From contig JALUXB010000086.1 of assembly GCA_027019175.1 (NCBI GenBank), forward strand, positions 1-58,102: DNA of 58,102 bases, written 5' to 3'. Numbering within the stretch: the stretch's first letter is position 1; each line of letters begins with the position of its first letter. Positions 22,812 to 28,725 of the stretch are shown here, in pieces. The notes beneath the pieces are model-generated. The model saw only the letters and a program-made list of their open reading frames with translations. It had not been told where the DNA came from and made no database searches. This DNA comes from Sulfurovum sp. GTDB taxonomy: Bacteria > Campylobacterota > Campylobacteria > Campylobacterales > Sulfurovaceae. The position numbers and the translations under genes are program-made.

Positions 22812-23633
22812 TCAAAAATGGTGGCTTTTGCAGGGAAAACGTTTCTCGTTTTCTGCCACTTTTGCGAAGATGTTCAGCGGTGTATCTGTCTTTTTTGCCA
22901 CCGCTTCCACGGCTTCAATATTCTCTTCAGGAAAGCTGATCAGCATTTCATACTCCTCCCCGCTAAAGCCGGTATCATCGTCAATATTTTTTAATATTTC
23001 AAATCCATATTTATTCATATCAAGCAGCTTGTTCGTATCACAGTAGAGGCCATCGGAGATGTCCATGCCACTGTGAAGCAACGGGCGTGCCTCGTAGATA
23101 AAATCACCCCGAAGCTTCGGTTCGTAAAAGCGTGAATCCGCAGCGATCTTTTCTCCCCGGAAAAGTGCATCGAGCGCTTTTTTACTCTTGCCCAGCGTGC
23201 CGGTATAGGCAAGCAGGTCTCCGGGTTCAAGTCCGCTTCTAAGCAGCGGATCGTCACTTTCTGACACCAGCGCAATACTAAGATGCAGTTTCTCTCCTCC
23301 TATTGTATCGCCGCCGATGATTTCACAGCCAAACTCAGCCGCAGTGCGTTCCATGCTCCCCGTCAGTTCATCAATTTGGGATGTCGTCAAATCAGGCGGT
23401 ATGCAGACGGTTACCAGCGCATATTTGGGGTGTGCGTTCATAGCTATGGCATCGGAGAGGTTCACGAGCATCGCCTTGCGCCCGATCTGCGCCATACTCA
23501 TCCATTCACGCTTGAAGTGGCTTCCCTCGAAAAAAGCGTCCATGCTGTAAAGCGTCTTTCCTACTACCGCAGCATCGTCACCGACATAACCGGATTTCAA
23601 TGTGCCTATCAAATAGGCTTCTTTGTCTATCAT
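22812..23633 (-). CDS. thiL: Thiamine-monophosphate kinase
   Basis: 273 aa from the ATG at 23633; a TTG two codons earlier is less likely. ThiL phosphorylates thiamine monophosphate to the pyrophosphate cofactor using ATP. GDDAAVV (about 18-24), EGSHFKREW, NLSDAIAMNA, GGDTIGGEKLHLS and GMDISDGLYCD are the AIR-synthase/ThiL motifs with the acidic metal ligands. The protein is shorter than E. coli ThiL (325 aa), mainly at the N-terminus, as is common in this phylum. It has its own transcription unit. Confidence 0.92.
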   Translation of the reverse strand: MIDKEAYLIGTLKSGYVGDDAAVVGKTLYSMDAFFEGSHFKREWMSMAQIGRKAMLVNLSDAIAMNAHPKYALVTVCIPPDLTTSQIDELTGSMERTAAEFGCEIIGGDTIGGEKLHLSIALVSESDDPLLRSGLEPGDLLAYTGTLGKSKKALDALFRGEKIAADSRFYEPKLRGDFIYEARPLLHSGMDISDGLYCDTNKLLDMNKYGFEILKNIDDDTGFSGEEYEMLISFPEENIEAVEAVAKKTDTPLNIFAKVAENEKRFPCKSHHF

Positions 23634-23768
23634 TGTCAACCGTTCCCCTATCTATTATTATGTATCAAAAAGGCAATAGCTCAAATATTACATTGCAAAA
23701 TTGTAACATACCAACCTCTAACTTGCTGCTGCAACACAAAAACACTCCATGTTGGAAGTATTGCACGC

Positions 23769-23774
23769 TATAAT
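23769..23774 (+). promoter_or_regulatory. -10 box of the SdhB/SdhE-like fusion gene
   Basis: CACGCTATAATTTA contains a perfect TATAAT 52 nt before the ATG at 23827. The local sequence ACGCTATAAT also occurs at the sdhA promoter (25003-25012), suggesting matched expression. AAAAGGACA supplies the ribosome site. Confidence 0.55.
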
Positions 23775-23826: not shown

Positions 23827-24873
23827 ATGGAGCACACCCTCACGCTCAAAGCATTCTTTTTCAATGCCAAAACCGATTACCTTCCCTACTATAAAACCTT
23901 CACAGTCACACTTGATGAAAATGCTACAGGCATTGCACTCTTGGAAACGATCAAAGCACAAAACGAAAACTTTGCCTACCCGGAAGAGAAACTGCTTTTC
24001 AAGATCAACGGCTTAGTTGTCACCGGTCAGGAGCGCATCGGAGATATTGTTGAAAAACTCGGTACTGAACTCCAGATCGACCCTGTACTCTCTTACCGTG
24101 CAAACCACTGCCTTGTCATCAATGACGATGATTTTATGGAACGCTTCGCACTGCTTGAACCCTATGCCGATGAAGAGGACAAAGCCTACTACGAAAGCCT
24201 CTATGCCCTTCACTACGCTTCAGAAACTTCAAAATTCAACCATGACTACATTGGTGATGCCGTACTCCTGCTGGCACACAGAATGATTGAAAACGGCAAT
24301 CCGCACAAAGCAGAGATCCTTGCTGCTGTCAATGATCCTTATGACGGGCTCAATGCCTGTGAATACGAGAACAACCTCTTCGATGCCCAGGATCACACTG
24401 CTGTTATTGAAGCACTGCGTGCACACATTGAACGTCCGGAGCCAAACCGTTTCCTTGAAAAGATGAGCCAAAAACTCTCACGTGAAGCAACAGCCGCCTA
24501 CAGTACCGATACAGTAACAGGAAAAACAGCAGCTTTCTATACGGGAGGAGCAGCGGTTCCCACACAAACAGAGGTTTTTGAAGCGATTGAAAATGCCGGA
24601 GGCCGTGTCATTCGCTTTGAGCGTGAAAACAAACTGTGCGGACGTACAATCATCGGGTATCAGGAGAGTCTGGCACTTCAAAAAGCGGGAACGACACTGC
24701 TTCAGGCATTCGATAACGGTGCAGAAATACTCATTGTCGCAGATGCAAACGATCTGGATTTCTTCAACCGCCATTATAAAGCCATTGAAAAACGTATCGG
24801 CAGAGAAATTCCGTTTGCACTGCTCTCTTTTGAAACCTACAAAAAACTTGCACAAAATGAAAATGCCGCCTAA
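23827..24873 (+). CDS. Cysteine-stripped SdhB-like/SdhE-like fusion protein
   Basis: 348 aa. Residues 5-22 (LTLKAFFFNAKTDYLPYY) match residues 27-43 of SdhB encoded 3 kb downstream almost identically, and similarity continues to GLVVTG, GTELQIDP and LLEPY, but the 2Fe-2S cysteine loop is shortened to PEEKLLF. Residues 139-200 align with the SdhB region carrying the two other clusters, again without their cysteines. Residues 233-343 resemble the C-terminal CCG domain of SdhE (NKLCG versus NKCCG; KRIGREIPFALL versus KVIGRDIELPVL). Only Cys95, Cys178 and Cys271 exist, so no cluster can form. The frame is intact. A structural, assembly or regulatory role towards SdhABE is inferred. Confidence 0.8.
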   Translation: MEHTLTLKAFFFNAKTDYLPYYKTFTVTLDENATGIALLETIKAQNENFAYPEEKLLFKINGLVVTGQERIGDIVEKLGTELQIDPVLSYRANHCLVINDDDFMERFALLEPYADEEDKAYYESLYALHYASETSKFNHDYIGDAVLLLAHRMIENGNPHKAEILAAVNDPYDGLNACEYENNLFDAQDHTAVIEALRAHIERPEPNRFLEKMSQKLSREATAAYSTDTVTGKTAAFYTGGAAVPTQTEVFEAIENAGGRVIRFERENKLCGRTIIGYQESLALQKAGTTLLQAFDNGAEILIVADANDLDFFNRHYKAIEKRIGREIPFALLSFETYKKLAQNENAA

Positions 24874-24904: not shown

Positions 24905-24934
24905 TTCCTTCCGCTTTGAAAGAAGCGGAAGGAA
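24905..24934 (+). terminator. Strong hairpin between the fusion gene and sdhA
   Basis: TTCCTTCCGCTT pairs perfectly with AAGCGGAAGGAA (12 bp, 6-nt loop). It lies 32 nt after the fusion-gene stop and before the sdhA promoter. The following bases (AATGTG) are not T-rich, so intrinsic termination may be partial. Confidence 0.65.
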
Positions 24935-25006
24935 AATGTGTAACAACCCCCTTTATATTTGGCCTTTTTGTCCTTTGTGTTAATCCGTTTAATATGAAGC
25001 GGACGC

Positions 25007-25012
25007 TATAAT
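25007..25012 (+). promoter_or_regulatory. -10 box of sdhABE
   Basis: GACGCTATAATAG contains a perfect TATAAT 35 nt before the sdhA ATG. AAAAGGACGC is the ribosome site. No clear -35 is visible, as is common for sigma-70 promoters in this phylum. Confidence 0.6.
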
Positions 25013-25047: not shown

Positions 25048-26766
25048 ATGGACGTTAAAATCTACGAATACGATGCTGTGATCGTCGGTGCCGGCCTTGC
25101 CGGTCTTGCCGCTGCCAAGGAACTCACCGAAGCAGGAAAGAAAACAGCAGTCATCACCAAACTTCACCCGCTACGAAGCCACTCCGGCGCAGCACAGGGA
25201 GGCATCAATGCCGCTCTTGGCAAAGAGGACTCAGTTGAGCTCCATATGTTCGATACAGTCAAGGGTTCAGACTACCTTGCCGATCAGGACGCAGTCGAGC
25301 TGATGTGTACCAAAGCACCTGAAACCATCCGCTGGGCCGAGCATATGGGTGCGGTCTTTTCAAGAGATGAAGAGGGTAACATTGCCATCAGACCGTTTGG
25401 AGGCCAGAGTAAGCCGAGAGCCTGCTATGCCAAAGACAGAACCGGGCTTGCCGTCCTTCAGGCGATTTACGAGCAGGCATTCCGTGCCGGCATCGAAGTA
25501 TTTGACGAGTGGTACTGTGCCGACCTGCTCTACGAAGACGGCAAGGCGTACGGTGTATCGGCATACAACATCCGAAACTCAGAGCCTGCCATCTTCAACG
25601 CAAAACTGGTTATGTTCGCAACAGGCGGACATGCAAGAGCCTACCGCTTCAACTCCAACGCACACGCCAATACCGGTGACTCACTCTCCATCGTTGCACG
25701 CCACGGGCTTCCTCTTGAAGATATGGAGTTCGTTCAGTTCCACCCGAGCGGACTTGGCGGATCGGGTGTCCTCATCTCCGAAGCGGCACGTGGAGAGGGA
25801 GGACGCCTCTTTAACTCCAAAGGTGAGCGTTTCATGGAAAAATATGCACCCAACGCACTCGAGCTTGCATCACGTGACGTTGTCAGCCGTGCTATTATGG
25901 AAGAGGTACGTCAGGGACGCGGTGTCGGGAAAGACGGTCAGTCGGTCAACCTCGACCTGACCCACCTGCCAAAAGAGATCATCCTCGAGCGTCTGCCCGA
26001 GCTGCGTGAACTTGCCATTGCATTCCAGGGACAGGACATGCTCAAAGAGCCCATCCACATCTCTGCAACGGCACACTACTCCATGGGCGGCATTCCGACC
26101 AACATCAACTGTCAGGTACAGAAGAATGCCAAAGGCGACCTCGTAGAGGGCTTCTATGCAGCCGGTGAGTGTTCATGTGTTTCCGTACACGGTGCCAACC
26201 GTCTGGGGGCGAACTCAGTCCTTGAGGCACTTCTCTTCGGGCGCCATGCGGGAGAGAACATGGTCAAAGCACTTGACGAAGGTGTCGAGATGAAAAAAGC
26301 GACCAAGGCCGATGCGGACAGAATGCTCGAAGAGCTTAACCGTGTCAAAACTTCCAATGGGACAGAGAGTGTTCCGGGACTGCGGGAAGAGCTGCAAAAC
26401 GGTATGACTGCCAATGCAGGTGTCTTTAGAAGCAAAGAGTCACTGGAAAAACAACTCAAACTCATCGATGAACTGCTCGAGCGCTACAAGCACATCCGTA
26501 TCGACGACAAATCCAACACATTCAACACAGACCTTCAGGAGGCACTGGAACTTGGACACATGCTGGAATTCAGCAAATTCATCGTTGTCGGTGCACTCGA
26601 ACGTGAAGAGAGCCGCGGCGGACACTTTAGAGAAGATTTCCCTGAGCGTAATGACGAAAAGTTCCTCAAGCATACGTATGCCTATATGGATGAGAACTTC
26701 AACATTACCACAGAGTGGGGCGAAGTGACACTCGGCATGTTCGAACCAAAAGAAAGATCATATTAG
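25048..26766 (+). CDS. sdhA: Succinate dehydrogenase/fumarate reductase flavoprotein subunit
   Basis: 572 aa FAD subunit of a non-classical, E-type complex. [13 protein letters not shown] (14-26) is the dinucleotide fold. [14 protein letters not shown] (42-55) contains His45, the expected covalent FAD attachment. [37 protein letters not shown] core FHPSGLGG and [10 protein letters not shown] are substrate-site motifs. There is no twin-arginine signal, so unlike the periplasmic methylmenaquinol:fumarate reductase MfrA it should face the cytoplasm. It heads sdhA-sdhB-sdhE, with sdhB starting 9 nt after its stop. Confidence 0.94.
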
Positions 26767-26775
26767 GAGGTCAAG

Positions 26776-27822
26776 ATGAGTACACAAACTGAAGAATTTG
26801 AACCGTTCAATACCGACGAGATCGAAGTGACACGCCCCGACACTGTCACGGTCACGCTGAAGACTTTCCGTTTCAATGCCGAAACGGACTACCTGCCCTA
26901 CTATAAACAGTACACGATGGAAGTGGGCAAAGACGAATTGATGCTTGACCTCCTTAACCGCATCAAGTGGGAACATGACGGCTCTTTCTCCTACCGCCGT
27001 TCCTGCCGCCACGGTATCTGTGGTGCCTGCGGTATCAAAGTCAACGGCAAAGCAACACTGGCGTGTAAACAGAATGCCCTCGAACTCGTAGCGCTTTTTG
27101 GAAATGAACTGCTCATCGAACCGCAGAGCAAGAAGCGCGCGGTCAAAGATATGATCATTGACAAAAAAGATTTCTGGGACAAGCATGCCGAAGTAAAACC
27201 TTACGTTGTTGCCGATATCGATCCGCATCCTGAGCATGAGACCAAGCAAACCATTGAAGAGTTCAACAAGTTCCTCGACTCTGATCTCTGTATCCAGTGC
27301 GGTAACTGCCACTATGCGTGTCCCGTTGTCGAAGTCAACGAAGACTACCTCGGGCCTGCCGCATTCAACGCTGCCTACCGCTTTACGGTCGATACACGTG
27401 ACGAGGCCGGGAAAGAGCGTCTTGAGCTCACTGCACAGATGGGGCAAGGTGTCTGGGACTGTGTCAAATGTTATGAGTGTGCCGAAGCGTGTCCAAAAGA
27501 TATCAATCCGATCGAAAAGATCACCAAACTGCACAATATGCAGTTTGAGCAGGGTGTCGCCAAGCCAAATGTTGCTACCAAACACGCAGAAGGTTTCCTA
27601 CGCGGCATGAAGAAGTATGGTTACCTTGACGAAGCCGATATTGTCGCCTATTCTGAAGGCTATCTTGGTATGTACAAGCACCTCAAGACAGCTATCAAAA
27701 TGATGAAAGCAGGCAAGATTCACTGGCATTCAGGTATTCCGTTCATCGACAGCGTACCGAAGATCAAGAATCTTGACGAAGTACAGAAACTGATTGAAAT
27801 TTCACAAACGAACACACTGTAA
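26776..27822 (+). CDS. sdhB: Succinate dehydrogenase/fumarate reductase iron-sulfur subunit
   Basis: 348 aa. The ferredoxin domain binds 2Fe-2S through Cys77, Cys82, Cys85 and Cys97 (SCRHGICGACG). Two further motifs follow: CIQCGNCHYACP (172-183) and CVKCYECAEACP (229-240). The second has four cysteines where classical SdhB has three, so a second 4Fe-4S cluster rather than 3Fe-4S is expected, as known for Sulfolobus-type E complexes. Compared with E. coli SdhB (238 aa) it is about 100 residues longer, mostly C-terminal. TTAGGAGGTC precedes the ATG. Confidence 0.94.
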   Translation: MSTQTEEFEPFNTDEIEVTRPDTVTVTLKTFRFNAETDYLPYYKQYTMEVGKDELMLDLLNRIKWEHDGSFSYRRSCRHGICGACGIKVNGKATLACKQNALELVALFGNELLIEPQSKKRAVKDMIIDKKDFWDKHAEVKPYVVADIDPHPEHETKQTIEEFNKFLDSDLCIQCGNCHYACPVVEVNEDYLGPAAFNAAYRFTVDTRDEAGKERLELTAQMGQGVWDCVKCYECAEACPKDINPIEKITKLHNMQFEQGVAKPNVATKHAEGFLRGMKKYGYLDEADIVAYSEGYLGMYKHLKTAIKMMKAGKIHWHSGIPFIDSVPKIKNLDEVQKLIEISQTNTL

Positions 27823-27831
27823 GGAGCTATG

Positions 27832-28725
27832 ATGAGCACATTGAAATATGCACTATTTACCGGCTGTACAGCCAAACAATCCACCCCGGAGCTGCTCTCT
27901 TCCACCCTTGCAGTTGCGGAAAAACTCGGCATTGAGATCACTATTCTTGAAGAAGCAAGCTGCTGTGGTGCAAGCCACCTGCAGGACTTCGACGAATTCC
28001 TTGCGCATGTACTCAACGCACGTAACATCTGCTACGCAGAGAAGCTTGGAATGACAATGATCACCATCTGTAACACCTGTCAGCTCAACTCTGCCATGAC
28101 AAAACATGCACTCGACACCAACCCGGAGCTCAAAGCCCGTGTCAACGAAAAGCTTGCTGAAGTGGGTCTGGAGTACAAAGGAACTTCCGAGATCAAACAC
28201 TTCCTCTATGCACTCATCGACGACTATGGTCTTGAGAACATCAAAGACAAGGTTCAGGTACCGCTGAGCCAGTTCAACATTGCACCGTTCTACGGCTGTC
28301 ACAACATTCGCCCATCCGAACTGCACCATGATGCCAACGGCGGCGAGAACCCGTACAATCCGACATCACTCGACCGTCTCATCGATGCACTCGAAGGACA
28401 TCCGGTAGACTACAGCCACAAAAACAAGTGCTGCGGTTTCCACGTCGAGCTTCAGGCAAACCACACATCAGAAGTACTTGCAGGTAACGCCATGGTTGAC
28501 GCCATCGACAACAACGCCGACCTCATGGTCACCCCTTGTCCGCTCTGCCACCTCAAAATGGATACCTATCAGGATGATGTAGGCAAAGTCATCGGTCGCG
28601 ACATCGAACTGCCGGTACTGCATATGCCGCAGATGGTCGCCCTTGCCCTTGGCTGTACGCCAAAAGAGATCGGCCTGAACTTCCACGTCCAGAAAGCGAC
28701 ACACCTCTACCCTGAAACGGCGTAA
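27832..28725 (+). CDS. sdhE: E-type Sdh/Mfr subunit with two CCG domains (HdrB-like)
   Basis: About 297 aa from the second of two adjacent ATGs (27829 or 27832), chosen for its 5-nt spacing from AAGGAG. It replaces the membrane anchors of classical complexes and hands electrons to or from the quinone pool. Each cysteine-rich CCG domain is complete: first GCTAKQ, ASCCGASH and NTCQ; second GCHNIRPSE, NKCCGFHVE and PCPLCHLK. In heterodisulfide reductase HdrB such domains bind noncubane 4Fe-4S clusters (family knowledge). It has no transmembrane helix. The name here is not the FAD-assembly factor also called SdhE. Confidence 0.92.
   Translation: MSTLKYALFTGCTAKQSTPELLSSTLAVAEKLGIEITILEEASCCGASHLQDFDEFLAHVLNARNICYAEKLGMTMITICNTCQLNSAMTKHALDTNPELKARVNEKLAEVGLEYKGTSEIKHFLYALIDDYGLENIKDKVQVPLSQFNIAPFYGCHNIRPSELHHDANGGENPYNPTSLDRLIDALEGHPVDYSHKNKCCGFHVELQANHTSEVLAGNAMVDAIDNNADLMVTPCPLCHLKMDTYQDDVGKVIGRDIELPVLHMPQMVALALGCTPKEIGLNFHVQKATHLYPETA

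Follow-up and report, generated by a model that had tools for sequence, protein, structure and literature searches.

A putative redox-dead sdhB-sdhE paralogue beside sdhABE in Sulfurovum belongs to a family found in most sampled Campylobacterota

Results

The window, that is the whole 58,102-nucleotide stretch of Sulfurovum sp. DNA that was analysed, carries a gene, here called X, between a divergent thiL-like gene (AIR synthase-related; 22812-23639, minus strand) and the plus-strand genes of an E-type complex: sdhA for the flavoprotein (25048-26766), sdhB (26776-27822) and the CCG/HdrB-like sdhE (27829-28725). X (23827-24873, plus strand) is an intact open reading frame of 348 aa with three cysteines in all, as the first-pass annotation, made from the letters alone, had described; they are C95, C178 and C271. 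The window holds just two copies of the sequence ACGCTATAAT (0.04 expected), the putative -10 boxes of X (23765-23774) and of sdhA (25003-25012), both on the plus strand, so the two genes do have the same -10 context as was then claimed. CGCTATAAT recurs at matching places in the closest relatives. The strong hairpin terminator ascribed to X was half right: a 13-bp hairpin lies 3' of the gene (24905-24934, plus strand) and is strong (-21.2 kcal/mol, z -4.3), but it has no T-run and the scan does not call an intrinsic terminator after X.

The N-terminus of X had been noticed for its near identity to SdhB, and indeed residues 6-22 are identical to SdhB residues 27-43 at 14 of 17 positions. A tblastn search of its own genome with X returned SdhB (35% over residues 4-118, E 6.6e-13); the match to SdhE, over residues 246-334, was weak (E 0.09). 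In hhalign comparisons, the X-family profile matched the SdhB of the window over 208 columns (E 5e-23) and the SdhE of the window over 101 columns (E 4.8e-10). The profiles of relatives gave E 5.9e-28 over 207 columns for the SdhB-like part (psB) against SdhB, and E 4.5e-27 over 274 columns for the full SdhE-like part (psE) against SdhE. Thus both relationships of X are significant, and the profile check that had been proposed came out in favour of the B+E origin. NCBIfam gave a weak SdhB match in X (E 1.8e-4), the Pfam match to PF22196 (HdrB-like_C) stayed below its curated cut-off (17.3 bits vs 33.4), and no match to PF18712 (DUF5644) was listed at E <= 1. The suggestion that a DUF name might already exist is right for the relatives, which carry DUF5644 and HdrB-like_C, but not for X itself, which falls below both Pfam cut-offs.

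The AF2 model of X alone has a pLDDT of 93.8, and it matched both of the folds expected from the earlier reading. Against the FrdB chain 1qlb_B, X residues 1-204 gave Z 13.7 with 197 residues aligned, and residues 1-205 gave Z about 11-14 against FrdB/SdhB chains in general; residues 228-348 gave Z about 11.4-11.9 against HdrB chains. The model was compared with VIA-align and with Foldseek. In the predicted structure, the psB part (residues 1-205; 23827-24441, plus strand), whose living paralogue is sdhB, has the whole two-domain fold of SdhB/FrdB without the 2Fe-2S cysteine loop, and the psE part (residues 228-348; 24508-24870, plus strand), whose living paralogue is sdhE, matches the C-terminal half of SdhE/HdrB, a CCG domain, and lacks the ligands. 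Both assignments rest on structural alignment and hhalign. The CCG portion of SdhE that had been recognised in X is thus its second half only, the first being absent.

Although X resembles complex II SdhB/FrdB in its N-terminal motif and its entire fold, it does not carry the cysteine ligands of the three clusters. Twelve ligand cysteines are invariant in 18/18 aligned SdhB proteins. Among 24 psB sequences, C77 and C82 (SdhB numbering) are gapped in 24/24 and C97 in 23/24, and at the other nine ligand positions cysteine is found in few cells (four at C229 and one at C239 among the residues listed). Judged from these alignments, the 2Fe-2S ligand loop of SdhB is deleted in psB, beyond mere substitution, and the remaining cluster ligands are replaced. 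The psE part shows a comparable loss: ten cysteines are invariant in 13 SdhE proteins and full-length psE retain almost none of them, while non-cysteine landmarks of SdhE such as D227 and R257 are retained. The short fusions, X included, are missing the first CCG half of SdhE altogether, and in X the second half has one cysteine; the CCG cysteine pair is not kept.

That one is C271 (codon 24637-24639, plus strand), which aligns with SdhE Cys202 and was first singled out as the ligand left behind; it is retained in 9/30 Sulfurovum copies. The more telling cysteine is C178 (codon 24358-24360, plus strand), which aligns with the SdhB ligand Cys229 and is kept in 30/30. We infer that one or two cysteines cannot hold the SdhB/SdhE clusters. 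Because C178 is invariant in Sulfurovum, some thiol chemistry may take place there.

Two further observations were made on the SdhE side. In full-length psE (L070, L071, L077-L083, L086), the position of SdhE C46 is occupied by D in 9/10 and that of C81 by E/D in 10/10; these acidic replacements could form a new metal, ligand or substrate site, instead of belonging to a passive scaffold. Separately, the SdhE matches in f1 g2 and f11 genomes (e.g. G118, G134) are two-piece within one frame of 323-359 aa, suggesting an insertion between both CCG halves.

The relatives of X, together called psBE, come in three forms: adjacent split genes, fusions of ~500 aa, and short fusions of ~325-460 aa such as X. 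In a tree that holds no SdhB from other phyla and gave long-branch warnings, the 24 psB lie on one side of a branch with support 100/100, separated from SQR-type SdhB, MfrB and FrdB. This single clade speaks, with the same reservation on long branches and missing phyla, against several independent duplications, and split and fused forms are mixed within it, so that fusion probably occurred more than once. An origin of psB from MfrB or FrdB is likewise disfavoured by the psB profile scores, which were 87-136 bits for SQR-type SdhB, 20-30 for MfrB and at most 26 for FrdB. One Sulfurovum genome has X as two overlapping pieces with a stop (G040:C10:24658-25667), so that either the gene is broken there or the assembly is at fault.

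The psB clade includes X and L083, a protein nearly identical to PDB entry 3KWL, which is labelled as an 'uncharacterized' protein of Helicobacter pylori and which, from its family and length, we take to be HP0468. X has the build of this group, a redox-dead SdhB-like part followed by an SdhE-like part, and its model aligned with 3kwl at Z 24 over 319 residues (VIA-align). HP0468/3KWL is a full fusion of ~495 aa with both CCG halves, whereas X lacks the first half. The Campylobacter jejuni orthologue of psBE is presumably Cj1459, by synteny. Our literature searches on HP0468, 3KWL, Cj1459 and jhp0420 found one table entry, one genome-wide association study and one gene list, and no mention of DUF5644 as an SdhB turned up in the literature searched. 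HP0468 has been annotated as DUF5644 (PMC9570263), and one genome-wide association study linked strain variants of it to the risk of gastric cancer (PMC6090961).

We then called psBE in 249 Campylobacterota genomes from strong PF22196 matches (G107 was set aside as SdhE) and from profiles A1 and A4. PF22196 matched in 177/249 genomes at E <= 1e-3, in 151 of them above its cut-off, and in 0/14 control genomes from outside the phylum; psBE was present in 161/249. SdhE was detected at E <= 1e-30 in 98 genomes; by E-value we assigned 57 of these to the SQR type (E <= 1e-80), and the remaining 41 are mostly of the Mfr type. The family was found in 35 of these 41 but in only 10/57 SQR-type genomes, compared with 151/192 genomes of all other kinds (Fisher p 6e-17, in a test that ignores phylogeny). 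Conversely, no SdhE-type subunit was detected in 116/161 psBE genomes, and the SQR type of the window is absent from 151/161. Where both psBE and SQR-type sdhABE occur (n=10 sampled genomes), they are close together in nine, and thiL-truD lies between them in G113. In a sample of the genus Sulfurovum, X is present in 42/61 genomes, 13 have SdhB without X, and six, each <90% complete, have neither. The co-occurrence with sdhABE expected of a factor dedicated to the E-type complex is thus not seen, and the survey turned against the role first proposed for X, since its homologues are found mainly in genomes without that complex.

A flavoprotein of the FrdA/SdhA class was matched (E <= 1e-100) in every psBE genome except G208 and G234, and classical FrdA was above its cut-off in 198 genomes. 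Since almost all genomes of the phylum have FrdA/SdhA, this co-occurrence is uninformative as evidence for a partner. G208 (psBE in L041) and G234 contain psBE with no FrdA/SdhA or FrdB match; frdAB is possibly missing there through draft gaps, as is also suggested by G286, which has FrdB without FrdA, the alternative being that these genomes are free of complex II. The SdhAF2/SdhE(YgfY) family PF03937 was found in 0/249 Campylobacterota genomes, while both controls, E. coli and Caulobacter, gave a match; like the FrdA count, this result points to no particular partner.

Finally, gene order was compared. Among 34 Sulfurovum loci, a few of which are the same genome fetched twice, a divergent thiL lies upstream of X in 30, and in 29 X is followed by sdhA in the same orientation, the others ending too early or giving no match. 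In many families a thiL relative borders psBE, sdhABE or both. In L074 and L127, truD-thiL is followed by X and then by sdhABE, both surviving, and in L126 thiL and truD intervene between X and sdhA. In psBE-free loci, truD-thiL adjoins sdhABE (L118, L119, L121, L124, L130; others have small insertions), and in sdhABE-free loci it adjoins psBE in several families. In Helicobacter the psBE neighbour is pepF, not truD-thiL. The simplest account of these orders would be a tandem sdhBE duplication followed by differential loss, and adjacency would then inform origin more than function.

Discussion

X is a real protein under selection and almost certainly a redox-dead paralogue of sdhB-sdhE: the profiles, the predicted fold and the tree all support the duplicated and fused origin first suggested for it. 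The reading that we prefer as a whole, and hold to be somewhat better than an even bet, is that X is a short fusion derived from an ancient sdhB-sdhE paralogue of single origin and a putative cofactor-free scaffold or regulator. According to this proposal, a tandem duplication of sdhBE next to sdhABE would have taken place early in the history of Campylobacterota, and the copy would have lost every iron-sulfur ligand set while retaining the SdhB and SdhE folds. The two halves would then have fused in several lineages, which later retained psBE, the complex, or both, as in the window. Such a protein would carry no electrons but would show an SdhB/SdhE-shaped surface to a partner. A role for psBE in general as a non-redox scaffold or regulator seems to us probable. 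The leading guess for the putative partner is an SdhA/FrdA-family flavoprotein, which psBE might bind during assembly or on which it might act as a brake; this guess is tentative, and we would sooner expect it to fail than to hold. The presence of psBE without frdAB in G208 and G234 argues against it, unless these drafts miss the operon.

A possible but less favoured alternative is that psBE has acquired a new function unrelated to the old one, such as a metal or ligand pocket at the former cluster sites, with the fold merely retained. The persistence of psBE without the parent complex is consistent with such a role, as are the acidic replacements of cluster ligands in full-length psE and the reported up-regulation of HP0468 by molecular hydrogen (PMC6090961). 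However, the half with the acidic pair is gone from X and the other short fusions, and we found no link to a ligand or a pathway.

It is unlikely, though worth weighing, that psBE serves the SdhA/FrdA-class flavoproteins of Campylobacterota in general as a non-redox factor for assembly or flavinylation. SdhAF2/SdhE(YgfY) is the usual flavinylation factor, and its family was found in none of the genomes surveyed but was found in the controls; a flavoprotein of the right class accompanies psBE nearly everywhere, and an SdhB-shaped protein would be a natural binder of SdhA. Such a factor would not be obligatory, because FrdA occurs in the near-complete psBE-negative genomes G068, G090, G072, G077, G084, G076 and G078, and the two genomes with psBE and no frdAB also stand against it. 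In a bolder version, which appears to us a long shot, two electron-transfer subunits turned chaperone: psBE would replace SdhAF2/SdhE(YgfY) as a cofactor-free partner, specific to this phylum, in the maturation or regulation of SdhA/FrdA flavoproteins.

The first-pass annotation had assigned X to the adjacent E-type SdhABE, as its own scaffold, assembly factor or regulator. This is distinctly unlikely, and very probably psBE is not dedicated to this complex. The linkage is real: X directly precedes a co-oriented sdhA in every Sulfurovum locus whose flank is long enough, psBE and SQR-type sdhABE are close together in nearly every sampled genome having both, and the two promoters have the same -10 context. 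However, most psBE genomes lack SdhE, psBE is absent from 47/57 SQR-type genomes, and Sulfurovum itself includes genomes that have SdhB and do without X. In addition, thiL-truD is also linked there, for no functional reason known to us, which makes linkage weak evidence. That X is a decaying pseudogene or relic is hardly credible: all cluster ligand sets are gone, psBE has been lost outright in many lineages and X is in two pieces in one Sulfurovum genome, but Ka/Ks of X against six orthologues is 0.07-0.14, which rules this reading out, the frames are open across the phylum, the family forms one clade with invariant motifs, and a homologue has been crystallised.

With psBE identified as an ancient sdhB-sdhE paralogue, 3KWL/HP0468, solved in 2010 and since listed as of 'unknown function', gains an evolutionary identity, and DUF5644 is mapped to a degenerate SdhB, on its helical domain. 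For psBE, 'function unknown' becomes a set of specific questions, such as whether it binds SdhA/FrdA and whether it affects covalent FAD. The function of HP0468 would be of use in view of its variants associated with gastric cancer risk. More broadly, psBE offers a clear case of electron-transfer subunits that lost their clusters and were nevertheless retained across a phylum.
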